Shown: in pieces, positions 1 through 64,000 of the stretch | Position numbering within the stretch: the first letter of the stretch is position 1 | How the letters are laid out: each line of letters begins with the position of its first letter | NCBI GenBank assembly: GCA_963678705.1 | Contig: CAVMBN010000143.1 | Location: 62,001 to 126,000 of the forward strand | Length of the DNA: 64,000 nucleotides | Source of the DNA: Panorpa germanica | Taxonomy: Eukaryota > Arthropoda > Insecta > Mecoptera > Panorpidae | Direction: 5' to 3' | The notes under the pieces: generated by a model | What the model was told of the DNA's origin: nothing | Databases searched by the model: none | The model's input: the letters and a program-made list of their open reading frames with translations, nothing else | Program-made: the position numbers and the translations under genes

Positions 1-220
1 TCAAGTAAGTCGAATAACATTAACTATAAATAATATTAAAACACAAGAATTAGTTTATATAAATGCGTGTTTTAAATAATAATGAGAGTGTATTAATTGT
101 TATAAGTGATTAAGTAAACAATATATGCGGTTTTCTTGGAAATAGTGATTGATCGTTCATGAACATTCAATGGTAACAAACAAATGGTAAGTAAGTAGGC
201 ATAAGTACAAGTATGTATAT

Positions 221-1183
221 AAGATATTTATAGAAATTCAGTGTGCCTTTGTTGATGTCCGGTGGCCAAGTGACCTTCAAAGAATTAGACCGGCAAAAAC
301 CTATAGGTACGTCTACTGCGCTATGGAGAACTATTTTCATTGTCGAACATTATTTTACAAACCGATTACCGATCCATGAAAAGGCAACTATCTAAAGGTT
401 GTCCTCAGCGATCTGTAATGGGGCCTGAGCTCTGGAACATGGTATTCGACGAGAACTGAGATTCTCACTCGAAAGGTTGTGTAGACATATGTTTTGCCAA
501 CGATAATGTGATCCTTATCGGTGCAAATAGTACAGAAACCCTAGAAAGCCGTTCTCGACCTGCTATCTATAAAATCTGTAGTTTCTTGAAGCTACAAAGC
601 TACGAAACAAATACAGTAGCAACGAATGATAAACTTGTAACACACCTTGCGCGTGTCACAAGGACGGAATGAAGCTTAAACTCGGCAACTATGCCGACAC
701 TATACAAGGGGGCATTTATGCTAATAGTTGTGTATTGTGCTTCGGCATGGTATTACAGGATTAATCTTCCAGATCTTCCATGCAAAAAACTATGTTATTG
801 ACGATGACGCGTTGTTGCAGAACTGTATCTACAGAAGTGGTGCAAGTGATATTGGGGACAATTCCTTTAGATTTAAAAATCACTCATGCACTTACTCAAG
901 TACAAATTACGCTTGAACTGAAAAAATCAAATTTTGATGATTTAAAATTAATGCGACAAATTTCGAGGATTTAAAGTTAATGCGGCTGTAGGATAAAAGT
1001 GTGGAGACGATACCAAATATATTGCCAAAGAGATGAATGCATATATGCATAAGCTCTGGCAAGACAGATGGGACTTAATACAAAAAGGAAGACCTACGTA
1101 TTGGTTTACAAGGACGTTAATATTGCTTTGCAACACAAGTGGTTCCTATCTACTATGTGTGTGATCGGCTCCTGCTACTTTAG
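221..1183 (+). pseudogene. Dead R1-like LINE ORF2 fragment, unit 1
   Basis: The parent protein is the reverse transcriptase ORF of a non-LTR retrotransposon, which copies element RNA at a nicked target. Visible blocks in order: motif A (FIEIQCAF then RWP) at 221-361, whose frame may extend about 20 nt upstream; motif B (KGCPQRSVMGPELWN) at 394-441; motif C as FAND at 493-504; a thumb block (TLYKGAF) after a TGA near 670; a post-RT block (CRTVSTEVVQV, IPLDL) near 815-880; and a tail block (LWQDRWDLIQKGRPTYW) near 1050-1110. They lie in three frames. Motif A has E for the expected Asp and V for the following Asp, and motif C has N for the first Asp. An extra TGA at 457-459 follows motif B. The upstream endonuclease domain, ORF1 and the terminal zinc knuckle are absent. 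Clade assignment is from memory of family motifs; no search was run. Confidence 0.8.
1037..1050. repeat. 14-bp perfect palindrome ATGCATATATGCAT
   Basis: It is exactly self-complementary and sits in the LINE tail block just before the LWQDRW codons. Almost every unit that keeps the tail has it unchanged. It may simply be inherited coding sequence, and no function is shown. Confidence 0.85.
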
Positions 1184-1806
1184 GTGAAAAAAGTGATTAA
1201 AAGTGAGAAATTAATTATGGAAAAAAATTAAATAAATTATATGAATACTTTTTCAAACGAAAAGTATTTAAGTTTGTTTTAAATTTGTGTTAATTTACCC
1301 TAAACAAAGTGTTTTTACAAAAGTTTGACAGTTGGAAACCAGTGTTAAAAACGAATTTTTCATTAGGCGTACACGCGGTCTTATAAACATAACCTGAAAT
1401 TTGTAACTTTGATGTTTGATATAAGACATTATTAAGTGCGACAGACAAAAAAAGTGATAATATTTAGGTTAGTGTTAGTGCTAAAACATCAAGTGGTTTA
1501 AAATTTAAGAAATCTGTAGAGATATATAAGGAAGATCTCATATAAACACTACAAATATACGGAAGACAAAAAGTTGCCGCCCACTATCAAGTAAGTCGAA
1601 TAACATTAACTATAAATAATATTAAAACACAAGAATTAGTTTATATAAATGCGTGTTATAAATAATAATGAGAGTGTATTAATTGTTATAAGTGATTAAG
1701 TGAACAATATATGCGGTTTTCTTGGAAATAGTGATTGATCGTTTATGAACATTCAATGGTAACAAACAAATGGTAAGTAGGTAGGCATAAGTACAAGTAT
1801 GTATAT
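1184..1806. repeat. Spacer part of the unit (example: unit 1/2 junction)
   Basis: This ~620-bp AT-rich stretch lies between the end of one LINE remnant and the start of the next, and the equivalent interval recurs at every junction. No reading frame of note is present. It holds a small hairpin (1244-1268), a CpG-bearing patch (ACGCGTACACGCGG in most units), runs of A, and two GTAAGT motifs at the unit start and near 187 of unit 1. It could be untranslated LINE sequence or the original genomic flank; the sequence does not decide this. Confidence 0.7.
1244..1268. repeat. Small spacer hairpin
   Basis: AATACTTTTTC and GAAAAGTATT pair around an AAAC loop, with one bulged base in the stem. The pair is kept in nearly all full-length units. 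A few units (such as 23-26 and their copies) have AAGTTTTT on the right arm, which weakens the stem. Confidence 0.6.
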
Positions 1807-2956
1807 AAGATATTTATAGAAATTCAGTGTGCCTTTGTTGATGTCCGGTGGCCAAGTGACCTTCAAAGAATTAGACCGGCAAAAACCTATAGGTACGTCT
1901 ACTGCGCTATGGAGAACTATTTTCATTGTCGAACATTATTTTACAAACCGATTACCGTTCCATGAAAAGGCAACTATGTAAAGGTTGTCCTTAGCGATCT
2001 GTAATGAAGCCTGAGCTCTGGAACATGGTATTCGACGAGAACTGTGTTTCTCACTCAAAAGGTTGTGTTAACATATGTTTTGCCAACGATAATGTGATCC
2101 TTTTCGGTGCAAATAGTACAGAAACCCCAGAAAGCCGTTCTCGACCTGCTATATATAAAATCTGTAGTTTCTTGAAGCTACAAAGCTACGAAACAAATAC
2201 AGTAGCAACGAATGATAAACTTGTAACACACCTTGCGAGTGTCACAAGGACGGAATGAAGCTTAAACTCGGCAACTATGCCGACACTATACAAGGGGGCA
2301 TTTTTGCTAATAGTTGTGTATTGTGCTTCGGCATGATATTACAGGATCAATCTTCCAGATCTTCCATGCAAAGAACTATGTTATTGACGATGACGCGTTG
2401 TTGCAGAACTGTATCTACACAAGTGGTGCAAGTGATATTGGGGACAATTCCTTTAAATTTAAAAATCACTCATGCACTTACTCAAGTACAAATTACGCTA
2501 GAACTGAAAAAATCAAATTTTGATTATTTAAAATTAATGCATAAGTGTACAATGTATGATATATTATAATAGATTATTGTATATAAAAACAAGAGGGCAT
2601 TCACTGGAATGTTTCTCTTACATGTCTAAATTAATAATGTTAGTTATTATGTAAGAAGCTTATTGCCTACTTAGGCAGATTGCTGAAACAATAGGAGAAA
2701 TAAAAAAAAAAAAAAAAAAATTAATGCGACAAATTTCGAGGATTTAAAGTTAATGCGGATGTAGGATAAAAGTCTGGAGACGATACCAAATATATTGCCA
2801 AAGAGATGAATGCATATATGCATAAGCTCTGGCAAGACAGATAGGACTTAATACAAAAAGGAAGACCCACGTATTGGTTTACAAGGACGTTAATATTGCT
2901 TTGCAACACAAGTGGTTCCTATCTACTATGTGTGTGATCGGCTCCTGCTACTTTAG
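1807..2956 (+). pseudogene. LINE ORF2 fragment, unit 2, interrupted
   Basis: The motif B to D segment is open at 2004-2258 and has the KPELWN variant rather than GPELWN. CPQ has become a stop upstream (ccttagcg). The insertion at 2541-2720 splits the post-RT block from the tail block. Confidence 0.75.
2541..2720 (+). mobile_element. A-tailed retroinsertion (SINE-like or truncated LINE 3' end)
   Basis: About 160 bp of sequence foreign to the unit ends in AATAAA run straight into 19 A. The target string TTAATGC flanks it on both sides, and the duplication can be read as 8-11 bp because A residues are shared with the tail. A-tail plus short target duplication is the mark of LINE-type reverse transcription. 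No promoter boxes or long ORF are seen. A 6-bp stem, TGCCTA-CT-TAGGCA, lies at 2664-2677 near its 3' end. Whether it is a SINE or a 5'-truncated LINE cannot be told. Confidence 0.75.
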
Positions 2957-3579: not shown

Positions 3580-4733
3580 AAGATATTTATAGAAATTCAG
3601 TGTGCCTTTGTTGATGTCCGGTAGCCAAGTGACCTTCAAAGAATTAGACCGGCAAAAACCTATAGGTACGTCTACTGCGCTATGGAGAACTATTTTCATT
3701 GTCGAACATTATTTTACAAACCGATTACCGTTCCATGAAAAGGCAACTATCTAAAGGTTGTCCTCAGCGATCTGTAATGAAGCCTGAGCTCTGGAACATG
3801 GTATTCGTCGAGAACTGTGTTTCTCACTCAAAAGGATGTGTTAACATATGTTTTGCCAACGATAATGTGATCCTTTTCGGTGCAAATAGTACAGAAACCC
3901 CAGAAAGCCGTTCTCGACCTGCTATATATAAAATCTGTAGTTTCTTGAAGCTACAAAGCTACGAAACAAATACAGTAGCAACGAATGATAAACTTGTAAC
4001 ACACCTTGCGCGTGTCACAAGGACGGAATGAATCTTAAACTCGGCAACTATGCCGACACTATACAAGGGAGCATTTATGGTAATAGTTGTGTATTGTGCT
4101 TCGGCATGGTATTACAGGATCAATCTTCCAGATCTTCCATGCAAAGAACTATGTTATTGACGATGACGCGTTGTTGCAGAACTGTATCTACACAAGTGGT
4201 GCAAGTGATATTGGGGACAATTTCTTTAGATTTAAAAATCACTCATGCACTTACTCAAGTACAAATTACGCTAGAACTGAAAAAATCAAATTTTGATTAT
4301 TTAAAATTAATGCATTAGTGTACAATGTATGATATATTATAATAGATTATTGTATATAAAAACAAGAGGGCATTCACTAGAATGTTTCTCTTACATGTCT
4401 AAATTAATTATGTAAGTTATCATGTAAGAAGCTTATTGCCTACTTTAGGCAGATTGCTGAAACAATAGGAGAAAATAAAAAAAAAAAAAAAAAAAAAATT
4501 AAGCGACAAATTTCGAGGATTTAAAGTTAATGCGGCTGTAGGATAAAAGTCTGGAGACGATACCAAATATATTGCCAAAGAGATGAATGCATATATGCAT
4601 AAGCTCTGCCAAGACAGATTGGACTTAATACAAAAAGGAAGACCTACGTATTGGTTTACAAGGACGTTAATATTGCTTTGCAACACAAGTGGTTCCTATC
4701 TACTATGTGTGTGATCGGCTCCTGCTACTTTAG
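3580..4733 (+). pseudogene. LINE ORF2 fragment, unit 3, interrupted
   Basis: The motif B to D segment is open for 110 codons at 3699-4031 (KPELWN, FVEN, FAND). The insertion lies between the post-RT and tail blocks. Confidence 0.75.
4314..4498 (+). mobile_element. A-tailed retroinsertion, copy 2
   Basis: Same insertion site and near-identical body as in unit 2, with a 22-A tail. The right target copy has lost a T (TTAAGC). Confidence 0.75.
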
Positions 4734-5135: not shown

Positions 5136-6258
5136 TTAAGTAAGTCGAATAACATTAACTATAAATAATATTAAAACACAAGAATTAATTTATATAAATG
5201 CGTGTTTTAAATAATAATAAGAGTGTATTAATTGTTATAAGTGATGGAAATAGTGATTGATCGTTCATGAACATTCAATGGTAACAAACAAATGGTAAGT
5301 AAGTAGGCATAAGTACAAGTATGTATATGAGATATTTATAGAAATTTAGTGTGCCTTTGTTGATGTCCGGTGGCCAAGTGACCTTCAAAGAATTAGACCG
5401 GCAAAAACCTATAGGTACGTCTACTGCGCTATGGAGAACTATTTTCATTGTCGAACATTATTTTACAAACCGATTACCGTTCCATGAAAAGGCAACTATC
5501 TAAAGGTTGTCCTTAGCGATCTGTAATGAAGCCTGAGCTCTGGAACATGGTATTCGACGAGAACTGTGTTTCTCACTCAAAAGGTTGTGTTAACATATGT
5601 TTTGCCAACGATAATGTGATCCTTTTCGGTGCAAATAGTACAGAAACCCCAGAAAGCCGTTCTCGACCTGCTATATATAAAATCTGTAGTTTCTTGAAGC
5701 TACAAAGCTACGAAACAAATACAGTAGCAACGAATGATAAACTTGTAACACACCTTGCGCGTGTCACAAGGACGGAATGACAAGGACGTTAATATTGCTT
5801 TGCAACACAAGTGGTTCCTATCTACTATGTGTGTGATCGGCTCCTGCTACTTTAGGTGAAAAAAGTGATTAAAAGTGAGAAATTAATTATGGAAAAAAAT
5901 TAAATAAATTATATGAATACTTTTTCAAACGAAAAGTATTTAAGTTTGTTTTAAATTTGTGTTAATTTACCCTAAACAAAGTGTTCTTACAAAAGTTTGA
6001 CAGTTGGAAACCAGTGTTAAAAACGAATTTTTCATTACGCGTACACGCGGTCTTATAAACATAACCTCAAATTTGTAACTTTGATGTTTGATATAAGACA
6101 TTAATTAGTGCGATAGACAAAAAAAGTGATAATAATTAGGTTAGTGTTAGTGCTAAAACATCAAGTGGTTTAAAATTCAAGAAATCTGTAGAGATATATA
6201 AGGAAGACCTGATATAAACACTACAAGTATACGGAAGACAAAAGGTTGCCGCCCACTA
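5136..6258 (+). repeat. Satellite unit 4, 436-bp and 27-bp deletions
   Basis: 1,123 bp. One deletion joins GGAATGA to CAAGGACGTT at about 5780. A second, about 27-bp deletion at 5244 removes the region just before GGAAATAGTG. Confidence 0.9.
5329..5855 (+). pseudogene. LINE ORF2 fragment, unit 4, internally deleted
   Basis: Motifs A to D remain (open 5526-5780). The thumb, post-RT and most of the tail block are removed by the 436-bp deletion; only the last ~75 bp of the LINE part follow. Confidence 0.75.
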
Positions 6259-6478: not shown

Positions 6479-7623
6479 GAGATATTTATAGAAATTCAGT
6501 GTGCCTTTGTTGATGTCCGGTGGCCAAGTGACCTTCAAAGAATTAGACCGGCAAAAACCTATAGGTACGTCTACTGCGCTATGGAGAACTATTTTCATTG
6601 TCGAACATTATTTTACAAACCGATTACCGTTCCATGAAAAGGCAACTATCTAAAGGTTGTTTTCAGCGATCTGTAATGGGGCCTGAGCTCTGGAACATGG
6701 TATTCGACGAGAACTGAGATTCTCACTCGAAAGGTTGTGTAGACATATGTTTTGCCAACGATAATGTGATCCTTATCGGTGCAAATAGTACAGAAACCCT
6801 AGAAAGCTGTTCTCGACCTGCTATATATAAAATCTGTAGTTTCTTGAAGCTACAAAGCTACGAAACAAATACAGTAGCAACGAATGATAAACTTGTAACA
6901 CACCTTGCGCGTGTCACAAGGACGGAATGAAGCTTAAACTCGGCAACTATGCCGACACTATACAACTGGGCATTTATGCTAATAGTTGTGTATTGTGCTT
7001 TGGCATGGTATTACAGGATCAATCTTCCAGATCTTCCATGCAAAGAACTATGTTATTGACGATGACGCGTTGTTGCAGAACTGTATCTACAGAAGTGGTG
7101 CAAGTGATATTAGGGACAATTGCTTTAGATTTAAAAATCACTCATGCACTTACTCAAGTACAAATTACGCTAGAACTGAAAAAATCAAATTTTGATTATT
7201 TAAAATTAATGCATTAGTGTACAATGTATGATATATTATAATAGATTATTGTATATAAAAACAAAAGGGCATTCACTGGAATGTTTCTCTTACATGTCTA
7301 AATTAATTATGTAAGTTATCATGTAAGAAGCTTATTGCCTACTTAGGCAGATTGCTGAAACAATAGGAGAAATAAAAAAAAAAAAAATTAATGCGACAAA
7401 TTTCGAGGATTTAAAGTTAATGCGGCTGTAGGATAAAAGTCTGGAGACGATACAAAATATATTGCCAAAGAGATGAATGCATATATGCATAAGCTCTGGC
7501 AAGACAGATTGGACTTAATACAAAAAGGAAGACCTACGTATTGGTTTACAAGGACGTTAATATTGCTTTGCAACACAAGTGGTTCCTATCTACTATGTGT
7601 GTGATCGGCTCCTGCTACTTTAG
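6479..7623 (+). pseudogene. LINE ORF2 fragment, unit 5, interrupted
   Basis: TGA at 6715-6717 follows GPELWNMVFDEN. The post-RT block reads IALDL instead of IPLDL. The insertion at 7213-7387 separates the tail block. Confidence 0.75.
7213..7387 (+). mobile_element. A-tailed retroinsertion, copy 3
   Basis: Same site as the other copies. It has the shortest tail of the five, 14 A. Confidence 0.75.
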
Positions 7624-9828: not shown

Positions 9829-10980
9829 GAGATATTTATAGAAATTTAGTGTGCCTTTGTTGATGTCCGGTGGCAAAGTGACCTTCAAAGAATTAGACCG
9901 GCAAAAACCTATAGGTACGTCTACTGCGCTATGGAGAACTATTTTCATTGTCGAACATTATTTTACAAACCGATTACCGTTCCATGAAAAGGCAACTATC
10001 TAAAGGTTGTCCTCAGCGATCTGTAATGGGGCCTTAGCTCTGGAACATGGTATTCGACGAGAACTGTGTTTCTCACTCAAAAGGTTGTGTTAACATATGT
10101 TTTGCCAACGATAATGTGATCATTTTCGGTGCAAATAGTACAGAAACCCCAGAAAGCCGTTCTCGACCTGCTATATATAAAATCTGTAGTTTCTTGAAGC
10201 TACAAAGCTACGAAACAAATACAGTAACAACGAATGATAAACTTGTAACACACCTTGCGCGTGTCACAAGGACGGAATGAAGCTTAAACTCGGCAACTAT
10301 GCCGACACTATACAAGGGGGCATTTATGCTAATGGTTGTGTATTGTGCTTCGGCATGGTATTACAGGATCAATCTTCCAGATCTTCCATGCAAAGAACTA
10401 TGTTATTGACGATGACGCGTTGTTGCAGAACTGTATCTACACAAGTGGTGCAAGTGATATTGGGGACAATTCCTTTAGATTTAAAAATCACTCATGCACT
10501 TACTCAAGTACAAATTACGCTAGAACTGAAAAAATCAAATTTTGATTATTTAAAATTAATGCATTAGTGTACAATGTATGATATATTATAATAGATTATT
10601 GTATATAAAAACAAGAGGGCATTCACTGGAATGTTTCTCTTACATGTCTAAATTAATTATGTAAGTTATCATGTAAGAAGCTTATTGCCTACTTAGGCAG
10701 ATTGCTGAAACAATAGGAAAAATAAAAAAAAAAAAAAAAAAAAATTAATGCGACAAATTTCGAGGATTTAAAGTTAATGCGGCTGTAGGTTAAAAATCTG
10801 GAGACGATACCAAATATATTGCCAAAGAGATGAATGCATATATGCATAAGCTCTGGCAAGACAGATTGGACTTAATACAAAAAGGAAGACCTACGTATTG
10901 GTTTACAAGGACGTTAATATTGCTTTGCAACACAAGTGGTTCCTATCTACTATGTGTGTGATCGGCTCTTGCTACTTTAG
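9829..10980 (+). pseudogene. LINE ORF2 fragment, unit 7, interrupted
   Basis: A private TAG at 10035-10037 replaces Glu in GPELWN. The following segment is open from 10047. Confidence 0.75.
10563..10744 (+). mobile_element. A-tailed retroinsertion, copy 4
   Basis: Same site; tail of 21 A. Confidence 0.75.
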
Positions 10981-14778: not shown

Positions 14779-15931
14779 AAGATATTTATAGAAATTCAGT
14801 GTGCCTTTGTTGATGTCCGGTGGCCAAGTGACCTTCAAAGAATTAGACCGGCAAAAACCTATAGGTACGTCTACTGCGCTATGCAGAACTATTTTCATTG
14901 TCGAACATTATTTTACAAACCGATTACCGTTCCATGAAAAGGCAACTATCTAAAGGTTGTCCTCAGCGATCTGTAATGAAGCCTGAGCTCTGGAACATGG
15001 TATTCGACGAGAACTGTGTTTCTCACTCAAAAGGTTGTGTTAACATATGTTTTGCCAACGATAATGTGATCCTTTTCGGTGCAAATAGTACAGAAACCCC
15101 AGAAAGCCGTTCTCGACCTGCTCTATATAAAATCTGTAGTTTCTTGAAGCTACAAAGCTACGAAACAAATACAGTAACAACGAATGATAAACTTGTAACA
15201 CACCTTGCGCGTGTCACAAGGACGGAATGAAGCTTAAACTCGGCAACTATGCCGACACTATACAAGAGGGCATTTATGCTAATAGTTGTGTATTGTGCTT
15301 CGGCATGGTATTACAGGATCAATCTTCCAGATCTTCCATGCAAAGAACTATGTTATTGACGATGACGCGTTGTTGCAGAACTGTATCTACAGAAGTGGTG
15401 CAAGTGATATTGGGGACAATTCCTTTAGATTTAAAAATCACTCATGCACTTACTCAAGTACAAATTACGCTAGAACTGAAAAAATCAAATTTTGATTATT
15501 TAAAATTAATGCATTAGTGTACAATGTATGATATATTATAATAGATTATTGTATATAAAAACAAAAGGGCATTCACTGGAATGTTTCTCTTACATGTCTA
15601 AATTAATTATGTAAGTTATCATGTAAGAAGCTTATTGCCTACTTAGGCAGATTGCTGAAGCAATAGGAGAAATAAAAAAAAAAAAAAAAAAAAAATTAAT
15701 GCGACAAATTTCGAGGATTTAAAGTTAATGCGGCTGTAGGATAAAAGTCTGGAGACGATACAAAATATATTGCCAAAGAGATGAATGCATATATGCATAA
15801 GCTCTGGCAAGACAGATTGGACTTAATACAAAAAGGAAGACCTACGAATTGGTTTACAAGGACGTTAATATTGCTTTGCAACACAAGTGGTTCCTATCTA
15901 CTATGTGTGTGATCGGCTCCTGCTACTTTAG
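14779..15931 (+). pseudogene. LINE ORF2 fragment, unit 10, interrupted
   Basis: The motif B to D frame is open at 14898-15230. RPALYK replaces the usual RPAIYK, shared with unit 12. Confidence 0.75.
15513..15695 (+). mobile_element. A-tailed retroinsertion, copy 5
   Basis: Same site; tail of 22 A. Confidence 0.75.
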
Positions 15932-20688: not shown

Positions 20689-20707
20689 GGGGTTAGGGGT
20701 AGTCAGA
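20689..20707 (+). repeat. Left terminal inverted repeat
   Basis: GGGGTTAGGGGTAGTCAGA. It pairs with 21597-21615 with one mismatch. Confidence 0.85.
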
Positions 20708-20818
20708 ATTTAAAAAAATCGATTTTTTTTTTTTTGCATTTTCTTAAAGTATAATATTTTAAAAATATTGTGTAAAAATTTGAAGTGAATCCGACAAATT
20801 TTTTTCGAGTTATTTAAC

Positions 20819-21016: not shown

Positions 21017-21176
21017 TAAGTTATTAAATAATTCTTATAATTCGACATAAATCCATAGCAAAACTTTAAATGCGTTTTTCTGAAAACTATGTTTTCTGAA
21101 CTGGTGATCACTGTAACTTAAAAACTGCTCGGTAGATTTCAATAAAATTTCTTGTACTTTTGAAATACATTTAAAA

Positions 21177-21333: not shown

Positions 21334-21378
21334 ATTATCTATTAATAAAACTAATTTTTCTTGTCCGATTGATTTTAG

Positions 21379-45707: not shown

Positions 45708-46662
45708 TCAAGTAAGTCGAATAACATTAACTATAAATATTATTAAAACACAAGAATTAGTTTATATAAATGCGTGTTTTAAATAATAATGAAAGTGTAT
45801 TAATTGTTATAAGTGATTAAGTGAACAATATATGCGGTTTTCTTGGAAATAGTGATTGATCGTTCATGAACATTCAATGGTAACAAACAAATGGTAAGTA
45901 AGTAGGCAGAAGTACAAGTATGGATATGAGATATTTATAGAAATTCAGTGTGCCTTTGTTGATGTCCGGTGGCCAAGTGACCTTCAAAGAATTAGACCGG
46001 CAAAAACCTATAGGTACGTCTACTGCGCTATGGAGAACTATTTTCATTGTCGAACATTATTTTACAAACCGATTACCGTTCCATGAAAAGGCAACTATCT
46101 AAAGGTTGTCTTTAGCGATCTGTAATGGGGAATGAGCTCTGAAACATGGTATTCGACGAGAACTGTGTTTCTCACTTGAAAGGTTGTGTAGACATATGTT
46201 TTGCCAACGATAATGTGATCCTTATCGGTGCAAATAGTGCAGAAACCCTAGAAAGCCGTTCTCGACCTGCTATATATAAAATCTGTAGTTTCTTGAAGCT
46301 ACAAAGCTACGAAACAAATACAGTAACAACGAATGATAAACTTGTAACACACCTTGCGCGTGTCACAAGGACGGAATGAAGCTTAAACTCGGCAACTATG
46401 CCGACACTATACAAGGGGGCATTTATGCTAATAGTTGTGTATTGTGCTTCGGCATGGTATTACAGGATCAATCTTCCAGATCTTCCATGCAAAGAACTAT
46501 GTTATTGACGATGACGCGTTGTTGCAGAACTGATAATAATTAGGTTAGTGTTAGTGCTAAAACATCAAGTGGTTTAAAATTCAAGAAATCTGTAGAGATA
46601 TATAAGGAAGACCTCACATGAACACTACAAATATACGGAAGACAAAAAGTTGCCGCCCACTA
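45708..46662 (+). repeat. Satellite unit 31, 955-bp type
   Basis: Counterpart of unit 19. Confidence 0.9.
45928..46532 (+). pseudogene. LINE ORF2 fragment, unit 31, truncated
   Basis: Damaged motif B; open at 46146-46379. Confidence 0.75.
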
Positions 46663-48248
46663 TCAAGTAAGTCGAATAACATTAACTATAAATAATAATA
46701 AAACACAAGAATTAGTTTATATAAATGCGTGTTTTAAATAATAATGAGAGTGTATTAATTGTTATAAGTGATTAAGTGAACAATATATGCGGTTTTCTTG
46801 GAAATAGTGATTGATCGTTCATGAACATTCAATGGTAACAAACAAATGGTAAGTAAGTAGGCATAAGTACAAGTATGTATATAAGATATTTATAGAAATT
46901 CAGTGTGCCTTTGTTGATGTCCGGTGGCCAAGTGACCTTCAAAGAATTAGACCGGCAAAAACCTATAGGTACGTCTACTGCGCTATGGAGAACTATTTTC
47001 ATTGTCGAACATTATTTTACAAACCGATTACCGTTCCATGAAAAGGCAACTATCTAAAGGTTGTCCTCAGCGATCTGTAATGGGGCCTGAGCTCTGGAAC
47101 ATGGTATTCGACGAGAACTGTGTTTCTCACTCGAAAGGTTGTGTAGACATATGTTTTGCCAACGATAATGTGATCCTTATCGGTGCAAATAGTACAGAAA
47201 CCCTAGAAAGCCGTTCTCGACCTGCAATATATAAAATCTGTAGATTCTTGAAGCTACAAAGCTACGAAACAAATACAGTAACAACGAATGATAAACTTGT
47301 AACACACCTTGCGCGTGTCAAAAGGACGGAATGAAGCTTAAACTCGGCAACTATGCCGACACTATACAAGGGGGCATTTATGCTAATAGTTTTGTATTGT
47401 GCTTCAGCATGGTATTACAGGATCAATCTTCCAGATCTTCCATGCAAAGAACTATGTTATTGACGATTACGCGTTGTTGCAGAGCTGTATCTACAGAAGT
47501 GGTGCAAGTGATATTGGGGACAATTCCTTTAGATTTAAAAATCACTCATGCACTTACTCAAGTACAAATTACGCTAGAACTGAAAAAATCAAATTTTGAT
47601 GATTTAAAATTAATGCGACAAATTTCGAGGATTTAAAGTTAATGCGGCTGTAGGATAAAAGTCTGGAGACGATACTAAATATATTGCCAAAGAGATGAAT
47701 GCATATATGCATAAGCTCTGGCAAGACAGATGGGACTTAATACAAACAGGAAGACCTACGTATTGGTTTACAAGGACGGTAATATTGCTTTGCAACACAA
47801 GTGGTTCCTATCTACTATGTGTGTGATCGGCTCCTGCTACTTTAGGTGAAAAAAGTGATTAAAAGTGAGAAATAAATTATGGAAAAAAATTAAATAAATT
47901 ATATGAATACTTTTTCAAACGAAAAGTATTTAAGTTTGTTTTAATTTTGTGTTAATTTACCCTAAACAAAGTGTTTTTACAAAAGTTTGACAGTTGGAAA
48001 CCAGTGTTAAAAACGAATTTTTCATTACGCGTACACGCGGTCTTATAAACATAACCTCAAATTTGTAACTTTGATGTTTGATATAAGACATTAATAAGTG
48101 CGATAGACAAAAAAAGTGGTAATAATTAGGTTAGTGTTAGTGCTAAAACATCAAGTGGTTTAAAAGTCAAGAAATCTGTAGAGATATATAAGGAAGACCT
48201 CATATAAACACTACAAATATACGGAAGACAAAAGGTTGAAGCCCACTA
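46663..48248 (+). repeat. Satellite unit 32, full length
   Basis: 1,586 bp, counterpart of unit 20. Confidence 0.9.
46883..47845 (+). pseudogene. LINE ORF2 fragment, unit 32
   Basis: Open at 47002-47334 and 47331-47636. Confidence 0.75.
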
Positions 48249-49203
48249 TCAAGTAAGTCGAATAACATTAACTATAAATATTATTAAAATACAAGAATTA
48301 GTTTATATAAATGCGTGTTTTAAATAATAATGAGAGTGTATTAATTGTTATAAGTGATTAAGTGAACAATATATGCGGTTTTCTTGGAAATAGTGATTGA
48401 TCGTTCATGAACATTCAATGGTAACAAACAAATGGTAAGTAAGTAGGCAGAAGTACAAGTATGTATATGAGATATTTATAGAAATTCAGTGTGCCTTTGT
48501 TGATGTCCGGTGGCCAAATGACCTTCAAAGAATTAGACCGGCAAAATCCTATAGGTACGTCTACTGCGCTATGGAGAACTATTTTCATTGTCGAACATTA
48601 TTTTACAAACCGATTACCGTTCCATGAAAAGGCAACTATCTAAAGGTTGTCCTCAGCGATCTGTAATGGGGCCTGAGCTCTGGAACATGGTATTCGACGA
48701 GAACTGTGTTTCTCACTCGAAAGGTTGTGTAGACATATGTTTTGCCAACGATAATGTGATCCTTATCGGTGCAAATAGTGCAGAAACCCTAGAAAGCCGT
48801 TCTCGACCTGCTATATATAAAATCTGTAGTTTCTTGGAGCTACAAAGCTACGAAACAAATACAGTAACAACAAATGATAAACTTGAAACACACCTTGCGC
48901 GTGTCACAAGGACGGAATGAAGCTTAAACTCGGCAACTATGCCGACACTATACAAGGGGGCATTTATGCTAATAGTTGTGTATTGTGCTTCGGCATGGTA
49001 TTACAGGATCAATCTTCCAGATCTTCCATGCAAAGAACTATGTTATTGACGATGACGCGATGTTGCAGAACTGATAATAATTAGGTTAGTGTTAGTGCTA
49101 AAACATCAAGTGGTTTCAAATTCAAGAAATCTGTAGAGATATATAAGGAAGACCTCATATAAACACTACAAATATACGGAAGACAAAAAGTTCCCGCCCA
49201 CTA
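48249..49203 (+). repeat. Satellite unit 33, 955-bp type
   Basis: Counterpart of unit 21. Confidence 0.9.
48469..49073 (+). pseudogene. LINE ORF2 fragment, unit 33, truncated
   Basis: Open at 48588-48920. Confidence 0.75.
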
Positions 49204-50761
49204 TCAAGTAAGTCAAATAACATTAACTATAAATAATATTAAAACACAAGAATTAGTTTATATAAATGCGTGTTTTAAATAATAATGAGAGTGTATTAAT
49301 TGTTATAAGTGATTAAGTGAACAATATATGCGATTTTCTTGGAAATAGTGATTGATCGTTCATGAACATTCAATGGTAACAAACAAATGGTAAGTAAGTA
49401 GGCATAAGTACAAGTATGTATATAAGATATTTATAGAAATTCAGTGCGCCTTCAAAGAATTAGACCGTCAAAAACCTATAGGTACGTCTACTGCGCTATG
49501 GAGAACTATTTTCATTGTCGAACATTATTTTACAAACCGATTACCGTTCCATGAAAAGGCAACTATCTAAAGGTTGTCCTCAGCGATCTGTAATGAAGCC
49601 TGAGCTCTGGAACATGGTATTCGACGAGAACTGTGTTTCTTACTCAAAAGGTTGTGTAGACATATGTTTTGCCAACGATAATGTGATCCTTATCGGTGCA
49701 AATAGTACAGAAACCCCAGAAAGCCGTTCTCGACCTGCTATATATAAAATCTGTAGTTTCTTGAAGCTACAAAGCTACGAAACAAATACAGTAACAACGA
49801 ATGATAAACTTGTAACACACCTTGCGCGTGTCACAAGGACGGAATGAAGCTTAAACTCGGCAACTATGCCGACACTATACAAGGGGGCATTTATGCTCAT
49901 AGTTGTGTATTGTGCTTCGGCATAGTATTACAGGATCAATCTTCCAGATCTTCCATGCAAAGAACTATGTTATTGACGATGACGCGTTGTTGCAGAACTG
50001 TATCTACAGAAGTGGTGCAAGTGATATTGGGGACAATTTTTTTAGATTTAAAAATCACTCATGCACTTACTCAAATACAAATTACGCTAGAACTGAAAAA
50101 ATCAAATTTTGATTATTTAAAATTAATGCGACAAATTTCGAAGATTTAAAGTTAATGCGGCTGTAGGATAAAAGTCTGGAGACGATACCAAATATATTGC
50201 AAAAGAGATGAATGCATATATGCATAAGCTCTGGCAAGACAGATGGGACTTAATACAAAAAGAAAGACCTACGTATTGGTTTACAAGGACGTTAATATTG
50301 CTTTGCAACACAAGTGGTTCCTATCTACTATGTGTGTGATCGGCTCCTGCTACTTTAGGTGAAAAAAGTGATTAAAAGTGAGAAATTAACTATGGAAAAA
50401 AATTAAATAAATTATATGAATACTTTTTCAAACGAAAAGTATTTAAGTTTGTTTTAAATTTGTGTTAATTTACCCTAAACAAAGTGTTTTTACAAAAGTT
50501 TGACAGTTGGAAACCAGTGTTAAAAACGAATTTTTTATTACGCGTACACGCGGTCTTATAAACATAACCTCAAATTTGTAACTTTGATGTTTGATATAAG
50601 ACATTAATAAGTGCGATAGACAAAAAAAGTGATAATAATTAGGTTAGTGTTAGTGCTAAAACATCAAGTGGTTTAAAATTCAAGAAATCTGTAGAGATAT
50701 ATAAGGAAGACCTCATATAAACACTACAAATATACGGAAGACAAAAGGTTGCCGCCCACTA
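49204..50761 (+). repeat. Satellite unit 34, 28-bp deletion type
   Basis: 1,558 bp, counterpart of unit 22. Confidence 0.9.
49424..50358 (+). pseudogene. LINE ORF2 fragment, unit 34
   Basis: Open at 49515-49847 and 49844-50149. Confidence 0.75.
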
Positions 50762-52342
50762 TCAAGTAAGTCGAATAACATTAACTATAAATAATATTAA
50801 AACACAAGAATTAATTTATATAAATGCGTGTTTTAAATAATAATGAGAGTGTATTAATTGTTATAAGTGATTAAGTGAACAATATATGCGGTTTTCTTGG
50901 AAATAGTGATTGATCGTTCATGAACATTCAATGGTAACAAACAAATGGTAAGTAAGTAGGCATAAGTACAAGTATGTAAATGAGATATTTATAGAAATTC
51001 AGTGTGCCTTTGTTGATGTTCGGTGGCTAAGTGACCTTCAAAGAATTAGACCGGCAAAAACCTATAGGTACGTCTGCTGCGCTATGGAGAACTTTTTTCA
51101 TTGTCGAACATCATTTTACAAACCGATTACCGTTCCATGAAAAGGCAACTATCTAAAAGTAGTCCTCAGCGATCTGTAATGGGGCCTGAGCTCTGGAACA
51201 TGGTATTCGACGAGAACTGTGTTTCTCACTCAAAAGGTTGTGTAGACATATGTTTTGCCAACGATAATGTGATCCTTATCGGTGCAAATAGTACAGAAAC
51301 CCTAGAAAGCCGTTCTCGACCTGCTATATATAAAATCTGTAGTTTCTTGAAGCTACAAAGCTACGAAACAAATACAGTAACAATGAATGATAAACTTGTA
51401 ACACACCTTGCGCGTGTCACAAGGACGGAATGAAGCTTAAACTCGGCAACTATGCCGACACTATACAAGGGGGCATTTATGCTAATAGTTGTGTATTGTG
51501 CTTCGGCATGGCATTACAGGATCAATCTTCCAGATCTTTCATGCAAAGAACTATGTTATTGACGATAACGCGTTGTTGCAGAACTGTATCTACAGAAGTG
51601 GTGCAAGTGATATTGGGGACAATTCCTTTAGATTTAAAAATCACTCATGCACTTACTCAAGTACAAATTACGCTATAACTGAAAAAATCAAATTTTGATC
51701 ATTTAAAATTAATGCGACAAATTTCGAGGATTTAAAGTTAATGCGGCTGTAGGATAAAAGTCTGGAGACGATATTAAATATATTGCCAAAGAGATGAATG
51801 CATATATGCATAAGCTCTGGCAAGACAGATGGGACTTAATACAAAAAGGAAGACCTACGTATTGGTTTACATAAACGTTATTATTGCTTTGCAACACAAG
51901 TGGTTCCTATCTACTATGTGTGTGATCGGCTCCTGCTACTTTAGGTGAAAAAAGTGATTAAAAGTGAGAAATTAATTATGGAAAAAAATTAAATAAATTA
52001 TATGAATACTTTTTCAAACGAAAAGTTTTTAAGTTTGTTTTAAATTTGTGTTAATTTACCCTAAACAAAGTGTTTTTACAAAAGTTTGACAGTTGGAAAC
52101 CAGTGTTAAAAACGAATTTTTCATTACGCGTACGTCTTATAAACATAACCTCAAATTTGTAACTTTGATGTTTGATATAAGACACTAATAAGTGCAATAG
52201 ACAAAAAAAGTGATAATAATTAGGTTAGTGTTAGTGCTAAAACATCAAGTGGTTTAAAATTCTAGAAATCTGAAGAGATATATAAGGAAGACCTCATATA
52301 TACACTACAAATATACGGAAGACAAAAGGTTGCCGCCCACTA
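50762..52342 (+). repeat. Satellite unit 35, full length
   Basis: 1,581 bp, counterpart of unit 23 with the same 5-bp loss. Confidence 0.9.
50982..51944 (+). pseudogene. LINE ORF2 fragment, unit 35
   Basis: Open at 51101-51433, SSPQRS at motif B. Confidence 0.75.
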
Positions 52343-53297
52343 TCAAGTAAGTCGAATAACATTAACTATAAATAATATTAAAACACAAGAATTAGTTTAT
52401 ATAAATGCGTGTTTTAAATAATAATGAGAGTGTATTAATTGTTATAAGTGATTAAGTGAACAATATATGCAGTTTTCTTGGAAATAGTGATTGATCGTTC
52501 ATGAACATTCAATGGTAACAAACAAATGGTAAGTAAGTAGGCATAAGTACAAGTATGTAAATGAGATATTTATAGAAAATCAGTGTGCCTTTGTTGGTGT
52601 CCGGTGGCCAAGTGACCTTCAAAGAATTAGACCGGCAAAAACCTATAGGTACGTCTACTGCGCTATGGAAAACTATTTTCATTGTCGAACATTATTTTAC
52701 AAACCGATTACCGTTCCATGAAAAGGCAACTATCTAAAAGTAGTCCTCAGCGATCTGTAATGTGGCCTGAGCTCTGAAACATGGTATTCGACGAGAACTG
52801 TGTTTCTCACTCAAAAGGTTGTGTAGACATATGTTTTGCCAACGATAATGTGATCCTTATCGGTGCAAATAGTACAGAAACCCTAGAAAGCCGTTCTCGA
52901 CCTGCTATATATAAAATCTGTAGTTTCTTGAAGCTACAAAGCTACGAAACAAATACAGTAACAACGAATGATAAACTTGTTACACACCTTGCGCGTGTCA
53001 CAAGGACGGAATAAAGCTTAAACTCGGCAACTATGCCGACACTATACAAGGGGGCATTTATGCTAATAGTTGTGTATTGTGCTTCGGCATGGTATTACAG
53101 GATCAATCTTCCAGATCTTCCATGCCAAGAACTATGTTATTGACGATGACGCGTTGTTGCAGAACTGATAATAATTAGGTTAGTGTTAGTGCTAAAACAT
53201 CAAGTGGTTTAAAATTCAAGAAATCTGTAGAGATATATAAGGAAGACCTCATATAAACACTACAAATATACGGAAGACAAAAAGTTGCCGCCCACTA
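52343..53297 (+). repeat. Satellite unit 36, 955-bp type
   Basis: Counterpart of unit 24; G at 52,904 restores the common RPAIYK. Confidence 0.9.
52563..53167 (+). pseudogene. LINE ORF2 fragment, unit 36, truncated
   Basis: Stop in motif B; open at 52781-53014. Confidence 0.75.
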
Positions 53298-54854
53298 TCA
53301 AGTAAGTCGAATAACATTAACTATAAATAATATTAAAACACAAGAATTAGTTTATATAAATGCGTGTTTTAAATAATAATGAGAGTGTATTAATTGTTAT
53401 AAGTGATTAAGTGAACAATATATGCGGTTTTCTTGGAAATAGTGATTGATCGTTCATGAACATTCAATGGTAACAAACAAATGGTAAGTAAGTAGACATA
53501 AGTACAAGTATGTATATAAGATATTTATAGAAATTCAGTGCGCCTTCAAAGAATTAGACCGGCAAAAACCTATAGGTACGTCTACTGCGCTATGGAGAAC
53601 TATTTTTATTGTCGAACATTATTTTACAAACCGATTACCGTTCCATGAAAAGGCAACTATCTAAAGGTTGTCCTCAGCGATCTGTAATGAAGCCTGAGCT
53701 CTGGAACATGGTATTCGACGAGAACTGTGTTTCTCACTCAAAAGGTTGTGTAGACATATGTTTTGCCAACGATAATGTGATCCTTATCGGTGCAAATAGT
53801 ACAGAAACCCCAGGAAGCCGTTCTCGACCTGCTATATATAAAATCTGTAGTTTCTTAAAGCTACAAAGCTACGAAACAAATACAGTAACAACGAATAATA
53901 AACTTGTAACACACCTTGCGCGTGTCACAAGGACGGAATGAAGCTTAAACTCGGCAACTATGCCGACACTATACAAGGGGGCATTTATGCTAATAGTTGT
54001 GTATTGTGCTTCGGCATAGTATTACAGGATCAATCTTCCAGATCTTCCATGCAAAGAACTATGTTATTGACGATGACGCGTTGTTGCAGAACTGTATCTA
54101 CAGAAGTGGTGCAAGTGATATTAGGGACAATTCTTTTAGATTTAAAAATCACTCATGCACTTACTCAAATACAAATTACGCTAGAACTGAAAAAATCAAA
54201 TTTTGATTATTTAAAATTAATGCGACAAATTTCGAGGATTTAAAGTTAATGCGGCTGTAGGATAAAAGTCTGGAGACGATACCAAATATATTGCCAAAGA
54301 GATGAATGCATATATGCATAAGCTCTGGCAAGACAGATGGGACTTAATACAAAAAGAAAGACTACGTATTGGTTTACAAGGACGTTAATATTGCTTTGCA
54401 ACACAAGTGGTTCCTATCTACTATGTGTGTGATCGGCTCCTGCTACTTTAGGTGAAAAAAGTGATTAAAAGTGAGAAATTAATTATGGAAAAAAATTAAA
54501 TAAATTATATGAATACTTTTTCAAACGAAAAGTTTTTAAGTTTGTTTTATATTTGTGTTAATTTACCCTAAACAAAGTGTTTTTACAAAAGTTTGACAGT
54601 TGGAAACCAGTGTTAAAAACGAATTTTTCATTACGCGTACACGCGGTCTTATAAACATAACCTCAAATTTGTAACTTTGATGTTTGATATAAGACATTAA
54701 TAAGTGCGATAGACAAAAAAAGTGATAATAATTAGGTTAGTGTTAGTGCTAAAACATCAAGTGGTTTAAAATTCAAGAAATCTGTAGAGATATATAAGGA
54801 AGACCTCATATAAACACTACAAATATACGGAAGACAAAAGGTTGCCGCCCACTA
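53298..54854 (+). repeat. Satellite unit 37, 28-bp deletion type
   Basis: 1,557 bp, counterpart of unit 25 with a one-base loss at 54,361 (AGACTACG). Confidence 0.9.
53518..54451 (+). pseudogene. LINE ORF2 fragment, unit 37
   Basis: Open at 53609-53941 and 53938-54243. Confidence 0.75.
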
Positions 54855-59166: not shown

Positions 59167-60626
59167 TCAAGTAAGTCGAATAACATTAACTATAAATAAT
59201 ATTAAAACACAAGAATTAGTTTATATAAATGCGTGTTTTAAATAATAATGAGAGTGTATTAATTGTTATAAGTGATTAGGTGAACAATATATGCGGTTTT
59301 CTTGGAAATAGAACTTCAAAGAATTAGACCGGCAAAAACCTATAGGTACGTCTACTGCGCTATGGAGAACTATTTTCATTGTCGAACATTATTTTACAAA
59401 CCGATTACCGTTCCATGAAAAGGCAACTATCTAAAGGTTGTCCTCAGCGATCTGTAATGGGGCCTGAGCTCTGGAACATGGTATTCGACGAGAACTGTGT
59501 TTCTCACTCAAAAGGTTGTGTAGACATATGTTTTGCCAACGATAATGTGATCCTTATCGGTGCAAATAGTACAGAAACCCTAGAAAGCCGTTCTCGACCT
59601 GCTATATATAAAATCTGTAGTTTCTTGAAGCTACAAAGCTACGAAACAAATACAGCAACAACGAATGATAAACTTGTAACACACCTTGCGCGTGTCAATA
59701 GGACGGAATGAAGCTTAAACTCGGCAACTATGCCGACACTATACAAGGGGGCATTTATGCTAATAGTTGTGTATTGTGCTTCGTCATGGTATTACAGGAT
59801 CAATCTTCCAGAACTTCCATGCAAAGAACTATGTTATTGACGATGACGCGTTGTTGCAGAACTGTATCTACAGAAGTGGTGCAAGTGATATTGGGGACAA
59901 TTCCTTTAGATTTAAAAATCACTCATGCACTTACTCAAGTACAAATTACGCTAGAACTGAAAAAATCAAATTTTGATGATTTAAAATTAATGCGACAAAT
60001 TTCGAGGATTTAAAGTTAATGCGGCTGTAGGATAAAAGTCTGGAGACGATACCAAATATATTGCCAAAGAGATGAATGCATATATGCATAAGCTCTGGCA
60101 AGACAGATGGGACCTAATACAAAAAGGAAGACCTACGTATTGGTTTACAAGGACGTTAATATTGCTTTGCAGCACAAGTGGTTCCTATCTACTATGTGTG
60201 TAATCGGCTCCTGCTACTTTAGGTGAAAAAAGTGATTAAAAGTGAGAAATTAATTATGGAAAAAAATTAAATAAATTATATGAATACTTTTTCAAACGAA
60301 AAGTATTTAAGGTTGTTTTAAATTTGTGTTAATTTACCCTAAACAAAGTGTTTTTACTAAAGTTTGACAGTAGGAAACCAGTGTTAAAAACGAATTTTTC
60401 ATTACGCGTACACGCGGTCTTATAAACATAACCTCAAATTTGTAACTTTGATGTTTGATATAAGACATTAATAAGTGCGATAGACAAAAAAAGTGATAAT
60501 AATTAGGTTAGTGTTAGTGCTAAAACATCAAGTGGTTTAAAATTCAAGAAATCTGTAGAGATATAAAAAGGAAGACCTCATATAAACACTACAAATATAC
60601 GGAAGACAAAAGGTTGCCGCCCACTA
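59167..60626 (+). repeat. Satellite unit 41, private ~126-bp deletion
   Basis: 1,460 bp. GGAAATAG joins AACTTCAAAG at about 59,311, removing the second GTAAGT motif and motif A. Confidence 0.9.
59314..60222 (+). pseudogene. LINE ORF2 fragment, unit 41, motif A missing
   Basis: Open at 59379-59711 (motif B to D) and 59708-60013 (post-RT). Confidence 0.75.
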
Positions 60627-62131
60627 TCAAGTAAGTCGAATAACATTAACTATAAATAATATTAAAACACAAGAATTAGTTTATATAAATGCGTGTTTTA
60701 AATAATAATGAGAGTGTTTTAGTTGTTATAAGTGATTAAGTGAACAATATATGCGGTTTTCTTGGAAAAAGTGATTAATCGTTCATGAACATTCAATGGT
60801 AACAAACAAATAATAAGTAAGTAGGCATAAGTACAAGTATGTATATGAGATATTTATAGAAAGTCAGTGTGCCTTTGTTGATGTCCGGTGGCCAAGTGAC
60901 CTTCAAAGAATTAGACCGGCAAAAACCTATAGGTACGTCTACTGCGCTATGGAGAACTATTTTCATTGTCGAACATTATTTTACAAACTGATTACCGTTC
61001 CATGAAAAGGCAACTATCTAAAGGTTGTCCTCAGCGATCTGTAATGGGGCCTGAGCTCTGGAACATGGTATTCGACGAGAACTGTGTTTCTCACTCGAAA
61101 GGTTGTGTAGACATATGTTTTGCCAACGGTAATGTGATCCTTATCGGTGCAAATAGTACAGAAACCCTAGAAAGCCGTTTTCGACCTGCTATATATAAAA
61201 TCTGTAGTTTCTTGAAGCTACAAAGCCACGAAACAAATACAGTAACAACGAATGATAAACTTGTAACACACCTTGCGCGTGTCACAAGGACGGAATGAAG
61301 CTTAAACTCGGCAACTATGCCGACACTATACAAGGGGGCATTTATGCTAATAGTTGTGTATTGTGCTTCGGCATGGTATTACAGGATCAATCTTCCAGAT
61401 CTTCCATGCTAAAAACTATGTTATTGACGATGACGCGTTGTTGCAGAACTGTATCTACATAACTGAAAAAATCAAATTTTGATGATTTAAAATTAATGCG
61501 ACAAATTTCGAGGATTTAAAGTTAATGCGGCTGTAGGATAAAAGTCTGGAGACGATACCAAATATATTGCTAAAGAGATAAATGCATATATGCATAAGCT
61601 CTGGCAAGACAGATGGGACTTAATACAAAAAAGAAGACCTACGTATTGGTTTACAAGGACGTTAATATTGCTTTGCAACACAAGTGGTTCCTATCTACTA
61701 TGTGTGTGATCGGCTCCTGCTACTTTAGGTGAAAAAAGTGATTAAAAGTGAGAAATTAATTATGGAAAAAAATTAAATAAATTATATGAATACTTTTTCA
61801 AACGAAAAGTATTTAAGTTTGTTTTAAATTTGTGTTAATTTTCCCTAAACAAAGTGTTTTTACAAAAGTTTGACAGTTGGAAACCAGTGTTAAAAACGAA
61901 TTTTTCATTACTCGTACACGCGGTCTTATAAACATAACCTCAAATTTGTAACTTTGATGTTTGATATAAGACATTAATAAGTGCGATAGACAAAAAAAGT
62001 GATAATAATTAGGTTAGTGTTAGTGCTAAAACATCAAGTGGTTTAAAATTCAAGAAATCTGTAGAGATATATAAGCAAGACCTCATATAAACACTACAAA
62101 TATACGGAAGACAAAAGGTTGCCGCCCACTA
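60627..62131 (+). repeat. Satellite unit 42, private 81-bp deletion
   Basis: 1,505 bp. TATCTACA joins TAACTGAAAA at about 61,459. Confidence 0.9.
60847..61728 (+). pseudogene. LINE ORF2 fragment, unit 42
   Basis: Open at 60966-61298, with FANG at motif C. The 81-bp deletion removes most of the post-RT block after CRTVST. Confidence 0.75.
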
Positions 62132-63717
62132 TCAAGTAAGTCGAATAACATTAACTATAAATAATATTAAAACACAAGAATTAGTTTATATAAATGCGTG
62201 TTTTAAATAATAATGAGAGTGTAATAATTGTTATAAGTGATTAGGTGAACAATATATGCGGTTTTCTTGGAAATAGTGATTGATCGTTCATGAACATTCA
62301 ATAGTAACAAACAAATGGTAAGTAAGTAGGCATAAGTACAAGTATGTATATGAGATATTTATAGAAATTCAGTGTGCCTTTGTTGATGTCCGGTGGCCAA
62401 GTGACCTTCAAAGAATTAGACCGGCAAAAACCTATAGGTACGTCTACTGCGCTATGGAGAACTATTTTCATTGTCGAACATTATTTAACAAACCGATTAC
62501 CGTTCCATGAAAAGGCAACTATCTAAAGGTTGTCCTCAGCGATCTGTAATGGGGCCTGAGCTCTGGAACATGGTATTCGACGAGAACTGAGATTCTCACT
62601 CGAAAGGTTGTGTAGACATATGTTTTGCCAACGATAATGTGATCCTTATCGGTGCAAATAGTACACAAACCCTAGAAAGCCGTTCTCGACCTGCTATATA
62701 TAAAATCTGTAGTTTCTTGAAGCTACAAAGCTACGAAACAAATACAGTAGCAACGAATGATAAACTTGTAACACACCTTGCGCGTGTCACAAGGACGGAA
62801 TGAAGCTTAAGCTCGGCAACTATGCCGACACTATACATGGGGGCATTTATGCTAATAGTTGTGTATTGTGCTTCGGCATGGTATTACAGGATCAATCTTC
62901 CAGATCTTCCATGCAAAAAACTATGTTATTGACGATGACGCGTTGTTGCAGAACTGTATCTACAGAAGTGGTGCAAGTGAAATTGGGGACAATTCCTTTA
63001 GATTTAAAAATCACTCATGCACTTACTCAAGTACAAATTACGCTAGAACTGAAAAAATCAAATTTTGATGATTTAAAATTAATGCGACAAATTTCAAGGA
63101 TTTAAAGTTAATGCGGTTGTAGGATAAAAGTCTGGAGACGATACCAAATATATTGCCAAAGAGATGAATGCATATATGCATAAGCTCTGGCAAGACAGAT
63201 GGGACTTAATACAAAAAGGAAGACCTACGTATTGGTTTACAAGGACGTTAATATTGCTTTGTAACACAAGTGGTTCCTATCTACTATGCGTGTGATCGGC
63301 TCCTGCTACTTTAGGTAAAAAAAGTGATTAAAAGTGAGAAATTAATTATGGAAAAAAATTAAATAATGTATATGAATACCTTTTCAAACGAAAAGTATTT
63401 AAGTTTGTTTTACATTTGTGTTAATTTACCCTAAACAAAGTGTTTTTACAAAAGTTTGACAGTTGGAAACCAGTGTTAAAAACGAATTTTTCATTACGCG
63501 TACACGCGGTCTTATAAACATAACCTCAAATTTGTAACTTTGATGTTTGATATAAGACATTAATAAGTGCGATAGACAAAAAAAGTGATAATAATTAGGT
63601 TAGTGTTAGTGCTAAAACATCAAGTGGTTTAAAATTCAAGAAATCTGTAGAGATATATAAGGAAGACCTCATATAAACACTACAAATATACGGAAGACAA
63701 AAGGTTGCCGCCCACTA
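62132..63717 (+). repeat. Satellite unit 43, full length
   Basis: 1,586 bp, with the same motif B stop haplotype as units 1, 5, 6, 8 and 11. Confidence 0.9.
62352..63314 (+). pseudogene. LINE ORF2 fragment, unit 43
   Basis: TGA at 62588-62590 after motif B. The post-RT frame is open at 62800-63105. Confidence 0.75.
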
Positions 63718-64000
63718 TCAAGTAAGTCGAATAACATTAACTATAAATAAATTTAAAACACAAGAATTAGTTTATATAAATGCGTGTTTTAAATAATAAT
63801 GACAGTGTATTAATTGTTATAAGTGATTAAGTGAACAATATATGCGGTTTTCTTGGAAATAGTGATTGATCGTTCATGAACATTCAATGGTAACAAACAA
63901 ATGGTAAGTAAGTAGGCATAAGTACAAGTATGTATATGAGATATTTATAGAAATTCAGTGTGCCTTTGTTGATGTCCGGTGGCCAAGTGACCTTCAAAGA
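63718..64000 (+). repeat. Satellite unit 44, partial
   Basis: The first 283 bp of a unit, cut by the window edge just inside motif A. Confidence 0.9.
63938..64000 (+). pseudogene. LINE ORF2 fragment, unit 44, cut by window edge
   Basis: Only the start of the motif A block is included. Confidence 0.6.

Follow-up and report, generated by a model that had tools for sequence, protein, structure and literature searches.

Pieces of LINE coding sequence have been described within several satellite monomers. Chicken HinfI carries a piece of CR1 ORF2, and Phodopus PROsat and seal Pvc 20 carry pieces of LINE-1 ORF2, as set out in the relevant part of PMC9659126. The window analysed here, the whole stretch of 64,000 bases, resembles these three satellites in having a LINE coding piece inside a tandem monomer, but the LINE clade and the hosts are different; ~60% of the present 1.6-kb unit is an R1-clade-like piece. 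The monomer of the common cetacean satellite also resembles a LINE piece, there the 3' end of L1, whereas ours is internal to ORF2 (PMC9659126). The 18HT satellite of the Drosophila Y chromosome, derived from HeT-A and TART, likewise consists of non-LTR retrotransposon sequence, but its sources are telomeric elements and their 3' non-coding region (PMC9659126, PMC6947457). Moth satellites include monomers of >1,000 bp, such as Cper-Sat01 (2,244 bp), which are long and AT-rich like the present unit, a likeness of description and not of sequence (PMC8042265). Passages of PMC10257491 on rDNA and moth satellites have no bearing on this array. The initial annotation called a TE-derived monomer of 1.6 kb uncommon; for insects this is fair as regards monomer length, but LINE-ORF2 satellites (PMC9659126) and long moth monomers (PMC8042265) have been published. 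The array is a further case of the LINE-ORF2-containing satellites already known elsewhere and leaves the general view of satellites unchanged.

The entire window is one head-to-tail tandem array in a single sense, with the 43 complete units counted in the initial annotation and a further partial unit of 283 bases. The unit consensus is 1,586 bp, similar in length to the monomer of the common cetacean satellite, and has no match on the minus strand of the window; unit phase is arbitrary and was fixed by the window start. Of the 20-mers in the window, which contains no N bases, 93% recur, and mean pairwise identity among units is 97.5% (n=31). No Rfam family at gathering threshold and no ARAGORN gene was found in the window, and the unit had no match in phage records. 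As a long array in which one monomer is repeated head to tail, the window is a long-monomer satellite whose unit carries a broken LINE piece together with other DNA, an AT-rich spacer of ~0.64 kb (GC content, 26.6% in the consensus spacer and 39.5% in the LINE part). The units were initially thought to share one architecture, but their lengths range from 955 to 2,517 bp and only 19 of the 43 fall within 1,580-1,590 bp.

Table 1. Positions in the window of the array, its units and the features within them
Feature	Position	Strand	Remarks
Uninterrupted tandem array	1..64000	+	43 complete units and one partial; extends past both window ends
U01, representative full-length unit	1..1586	+	98.7% identity to consensus
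LINE-like part of U01	200..1165	+	Motif blocks, RVT_1 match, translation; outer edges judged by eye and approximate
AT-rich spacer, from the end of U01 into the start of U02	1166..1786	.	Composition; no Rfam or Pfam family
A-tailed retro-insertion, U02	2541..2720	+	TTAATGC at 2534-2540 and 2721-2727
A-tailed retro-insertion, U03	4314..4498	+	Right-hand duplication degraded
U04, 436-bp deletion (unit 672-1107) and its own 27-bp deletion	5136..6258	+	
A-tailed retro-insertion, U05	7213..7387	+	
A-tailed retro-insertion, U07	10563..10744	+	
A-tailed retro-insertion, U10	15513..15695	+	
DNA-transposon-like insert, 927 bp, U13	20689..21615	.	Flanked on each side by TTAA; terminal inverted repeats of 19 bp (94.7% alike)
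First copy of 12-unit, 16,416-bp block, U14-U25	22024..38439	+	
U17, first 955-bp unit with 631-bp deletion	26780..27734	+	Others: U19, 21, 24, 29, 31, 33, 36
U18, first unit with 28-bp deletion	27735..29291	+	Others: U22, 25, 30, 34, 37
Second copy of block, U26-U37	38440..54854	+	Near-identity to first copy from 39063
U26, chimera	38440..40025	+	Contrasting sites versus U38 and U14
U40, shares the 436-bp deletion of U04	58017-59166		
U41, 127-bp deletion	59167..60626	+	
U42, 81-bp deletion	60627..62131	+	

The LINE part (~0.95 kb per unit) is a decayed, R1-clade-like ORF2, frameshifted and with both ends missing, a reading of the initial annotation that is moderately supported by motif blocks and a match to RVT_1. 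In order, it contains an RT domain that begins inside its own first half, motif B (GCPQ.SV.GP.LWN in U01), motif C (FANDN) and post-RT blocks. Six R1-clade blocks occur in the correct order on one strand (consensus unit 233-1107; frames 1-0-0-0-2-0), and each scores above all 200 simulated sequences; their motifs, written after the translation had been seen and presumably typical of the clade, suggest the R1-clade assignment. Weak RT domain homology is indicated by Pfam RVT_1 (E=0.0029; score 17.8, under the curated cut-off of 29.6; profile 66-164 of 205), a match obtained only with a reading joined from two frames, after Pfam searches without it. Ten single-frame pieces yielded no RT family in Pfam, a longer frame-joined reading no Pfam family, and two PDB searches no RT. 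PAN_3 appeared in two overlapping single-frame pieces with Pfam E values of 0.05-0.07 only and was judged a chance match. The joined reading had no relative in viral contigs. A general LINE motif matched neither viral contigs nor genome contigs, indicating that these collections are poor in insect DNA; no ancestral single copy turned up in them. The intact ORF1 and ORF2, endonuclease and 3' end of an R1-clade LINE are absent; no ORF reaches 150 aa and stops are shared between units. The LINE part is a derivative and not an element.

Our results make it very probable that this satellite, presumably of an insect genome, arose from one dead LINE fragment that was duplicated in tandem, spread and homogenised by unequal exchange. 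An R1-clade-like ORF2 fragment that had by then lost both ends and acquired frameshifts would have lain within AT-rich DNA, and the stretch bearing it would have undergone a first tandem duplication. Growth and homogenisation of the array would have followed, as units in register exchanged sequence by gene conversion and unequal crossing-over. Concerted evolution by inter-unit exchange is evident, given the overall identity of the 31 units, a mean r2 of 0.175 for sites within 50 bp of each other but only 0.04-0.10 for those more than 450 bp apart, the presence of all four combinations in 310 of the 820 pairs of 41 sites, and a chimeric unit, U26. As far as unit site 623, U26 agrees with U38 at 23 of 26 contrasting sites, and from site 648 onwards with U14 at 27 of 27.

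U26 lies at the join of two copies of a 12-unit block, the duplication of which would be the last visible event. The copies are 99.84% identical overall, with only four differences (three substitutions and a 1-bp gap) in 15.8 kb between 22647-38474 and its partner stretch, and share exact runs of 9,004 and 4,836 bp. This is a higher-order repeat, a multi-unit block far more alike than single units, although only two copies are seen and it may be an assembly artefact. Indeed, it is quite possible, if less probable than a biological origin, that one stretch was represented twice, so that the array would be real and the recent event not. The near-identity and the long exact runs would fit such an error, as would the finding that, outside the block pair, no exact repeat of >600 bp occurs among the 40 longest listed; an assembler too would join within homologous sequence, and its mis-join would look like U26. 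However, the differences between the copies are not zero, and an in-register chimera is the product expected if sister arrays had crossed over unequally at U38 and U14. Counting against such a crossover, U26 differs from U38 at four of the first 640 sites, which exceeds the divergence of the block copies. We infer that the duplication is biological; an artefact would in any case concern one step only of the history favoured here.

Lesions of single units would have been copied along with their units during spread from the dead fragment. Among the 43 units, 19 are near full length; a 631-bp deletion is common to 8 and a 28-bp deletion to 6, other deletions occur in 4, a retro-insertion in 5 and a transposon in 1. 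The deletions, which have short microhomology, do not feature in the initial annotation, nor do the two types of insertion or the duplication of 16.4 kb. The A-tailed retro-insertion (175-185 bp with 14-22 A, flanked by TTAATGC) lies inside U2, U3, U5, U7 and U10, five units with no private SNP in common. The 927-bp insert suggests that a TTAA-type transposon struck one unit: a T-to-A change creating TTAA is found only in U13, the adjoining U14 and U26, the copy of U14, and the transposon only in U13. The 76-codon frame of this insert has no Pfam family, and none of its 15 pattern matches in viral contigs is a relative. Where a 955-bp unit is taken together with the unit on its right (U17/18, U19/20, U21/22 and U24/25), these pairs differ from one another by 19-27 mismatches in the short unit and 17-48 in the neighbour, the median over all unit pairs being 33. 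As only U22-U25 (17 mismatches) are clearly closer than usual, the 955-bp unit and its neighbour are not a fresh two-unit repeat. The array is a natural record of satellite evolution, repeat DNA of a known type with an unusually readable history: insertions, deletions and the chimeric unit can be ordered on one repeat background, and hence spread by unequal exchange can be traced step by step in a single assembled array.

A role for the array as a functional, transcribed locus, such as a small-RNA source in a sex-limited or heterochromatic cluster, is unlikely. Nothing direct favours this, but the array has one sense throughout, and its long units, each bearing decayed TE sequence, would be suitable for making piRNAs. 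However, diversity does not differ between the LINE part (0.0246; 95% interval, 0.0206-0.0288) and the spacer (0.0230; 0.0184-0.0278), no ORF of at least 150 codons exists in the 64,000-base window, and indels of at least 28 bp are present in 24 of the 43 units. Third codon positions show no excess (0.030, 0.023 and 0.024 for the three positions). An apparently greater diversity of the LINE part (0.035 versus 0.023) came from misplacement of the 631-bp deletion by MAFFT and was gone after pairwise realignment to the consensus. A more specific proposal is highly doubtful: the spacer would hold a putative promoter and, at GTAAGT sites noted by eye, a splice donor, and transcription of the array, which might be sex-limited, would yield small RNAs, with the captured LINE piece guiding silencing of its living relatives. 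The array probably has no selected function.

R1 elements of rDNA can stand in tandem, and full-length tandem R1 is known in Drosophila. An active LINE might thus have inserted repeatedly at the same place, or the spacer might be the untranslated end of the LINE itself, and a LINE piece, whole or cut by a deletion, is indeed present in 43 of 43 units. This origin is very unlikely, as the fragment lacks both ends of ORF2, its stops are common across units, and no Rfam rRNA family reached gathering threshold in the window. The absence of A-tails and target duplications from unit borders, noted initially, holds for the borders inspected (1-5000 and 19000-24000), but an A-tailed insertion does occur inside five units. 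Stops were surveyed in 31 units, namely all complete units outside the second copy of the 12-unit block. Six of the nine stops checked in the LINE part occur in every covering unit (unit positions 377, 670, 799, 919, 972 and 1162, in 30/30, 29/29, 29/29, 25/25, 25/25 and 27/27 units, respectively); those at 416, 913 and 943 occur in 30/31, 20/24 and 24/25. Of the 31 units, 4 (U8, U18, U38 and U39) have indels of <5 bases within their LINE part. As most disabling stops are common to all covering units, the fragment was dead before amplification. The shared stops, the lack of a difference in diversity and the in-register chimera agree with the initial proposal, now well supported, that one captured, already dead fragment was amplified rather than retrotransposed repeatedly. 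Copying by a rolling-circle (Helitron-type) element is scarcely credible, for although Helitron-derived tandem repeats are described for the CTRs of Drosophila in part of PMC6947457, the CTRRTC head-to-tail joint expected at unit borders (CTRR-TC) is absent from both strands of the consensus, and the inverted-repeat pairs of at least 12 bp in U01 number only two (76% and 88% complementary).

The longest reading frame of the spacer had an apparent resemblance to a helix-turn-helix, which was rejected as no Pfam family matched. By eye, GTAAGT occurs at the unit start and again near unit position 190.

A single array makes up the window: when its first 1,586 bases were compared by BLAST with the whole sequence, units were found end to end and in a single sense across all 64 kb, and no minus-strand match to the 1,586-bp unit consensus was found within it. 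Cutting units at a fixed phase gave 44 starts, that is, 43 complete units (U1 to U43) and 283 bases of a 44th. Pairwise identity averaged 97.5% (range, 95.9 to 99.2%) among 31 units, a set without the second copy of a duplicated 12-unit block and without the partial unit. The array is a real and ordinary kind of object, and its history is instructive. LINE-derived satellites, part of them derived from ORF2, are catalogued in two reviews (PMC9659126, PMC6947457). Long monomers are described in a third source as unusual for insects yet present in moths and beetles (PMC8042265). No R1-clade ORF2 satellite appeared in titles or abstract openings among the matches listed, a result of low weight as the subscription literature lay mostly outside this scope.

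The initial annotation viewed the unit as containing an R1-like LINE ORF2 piece with both ends missing, and this description stands, the LINE clade being moderately supported. R1-clade-like blocks occur in the consensus translation in frames 1, 0, 0, 0, 2 and 0. Six R1-clade blocks scored 50 to 102 on the consensus versus maxima of 37 to 41 on 200 sequences simulated to match its neighbour-base frequencies; these scores are supportive, not independent, because the blocks were written down after the translation had been inspected. A reading joined from two frames matched Pfam RVT_1 (E=0.0029; profile positions 66 to 164 of 205) below the curated cut-off, and this match is more independent support for a LINE origin. 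No Pfam reverse transcriptase (RT) family was matched by single-frame readings or by a longer joined reading. Homology starts within the RT domain and ends short of the zinc-knuckle region found at the C-terminus of R1-type ORF2.

The LINE piece was already dead before the array grew. Six of nine stops checked (unit positions 377, 670, 799, 919, 972 and 1162) are present in all covering units of the 31, and the others in 30 of 31 (416), 20 of 24 (913) and 24 of 25 (943). Small indels within the LINE part affect only 4 of the 31 units; the frame changes are therefore common to nearly all units. These common stops, together with a diversity that does not differ between LINE part and spacer, bear out the proposal that one dead LINE fragment was amplified. 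The spacer (about 640 bp, 26.6% GC) matched no Rfam family at the gathering threshold, and its longest frame matched no Pfam family; the plainest guess is that it is host DNA that flanked the old LINE copy. One stretch of it has, by eye only, the look of a putative insect gene start. With an observed/expected ratio of 1.00, CpG shows no depletion, in keeping with an insect-like genome that is only lightly methylated.

The claim that all 43 units share one architecture did not survive, as only 19 measure 1,580 to 1,590 bp and the others carry deletions or insertions. A 28-bp deletion is present in 6 units, a single 631-bp deletion yields a length of 955 bp in 8, and other deletions occur in 4 (see the table). 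Microhomology of 1 to 4 bases was found at all six deletions tested on the consensus, barely above the chance expectation. Single-base deletions, five each in U38 and U39, are far above the number in other units and may be sequencing errors.

Features of the array (coordinates are those of the window)
Feature	Position	Detail
29-bp direct duplication in LINE part	928-984	same place in other units
Gene-start-like stretch of spacer	1260-1700	5'-UTR-like run, GTAAGT donor
First retro-insertion (U2)	2541-2720	
DNA-transposon-like insert (U13)	20689-21615	927 bp
Repeated segment	22647-38474	repeated 16,416 bp downstream with 4 differences
Substitutions between near-identical parts of the block copies	27483/43899, 36488/52904, 37398/53814	
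U38 and U39	54855-58016	
U4 and U40		436-bp deletion common to both
U4		additional 27-bp deletion
U41		127-bp deletion
U42		81-bp deletion

Later insertions account for the remaining classes. The same retro-insertion of 175 to 185 bp lies at the same site in five units (U2, U3, U5, U7 and U10), all inside the first 16.4 kb of the window, with an A-tail of 14 to 22 bases and TTAATGC on both sides, the right flank being degraded in U3. No private SNP is common to these five units, which fits one insertion event followed by spread through exchange. The insertion lies no more than a few bases from the point where the two halves of the 29-bp duplication meet. U13 carries a single DNA-transposon-like element with 19-bp inverted ends (GGGGTTAGGGGTA) and TTAA on both sides, piggyBac-like by its TTAA target only; its 76-codon open frame had no Pfam match. 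The target site reads TTAA in 3 of the 44 units (U13, U14 and U26, the copy of U14) and TTTA in 32, and is uncovered in 9.

Association between variable sites declines with distance along the unit, and all four combinations were found in 310 of 820 site pairs. Adjacent units are 97.85% identical versus about 97.3 to 98.0% (mostly near 97.5%) at greater separation, a slight excess. Up to site 623, U14 and U38 differ at 26 sites, and U26, which lies at the join of the 16.4-kb duplication, agrees with U38 at 23 of these; from site 648 on it agrees with U14 at 27 of 27 such sites. If U38 of one chromatid and U14 of the other had crossed over, a chimeric U26 of this kind would result. At the three exceptions (36, 362 and 379), U38 departs from U26 and U14 alike, and at site 113 U26 alone deviates. 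These four mismatches in the first 640 sites exceed the divergence of the block copies and speak against the simplest form of this crossover; U38 therefore either acquired changes afterwards, differs from the exact parent unit or contains sequencing errors. The chimeric U26 could also be the product of an assembler mis-join. At all three substitutions between the near-identical parts of the block copies, the first copy has A and the second G.
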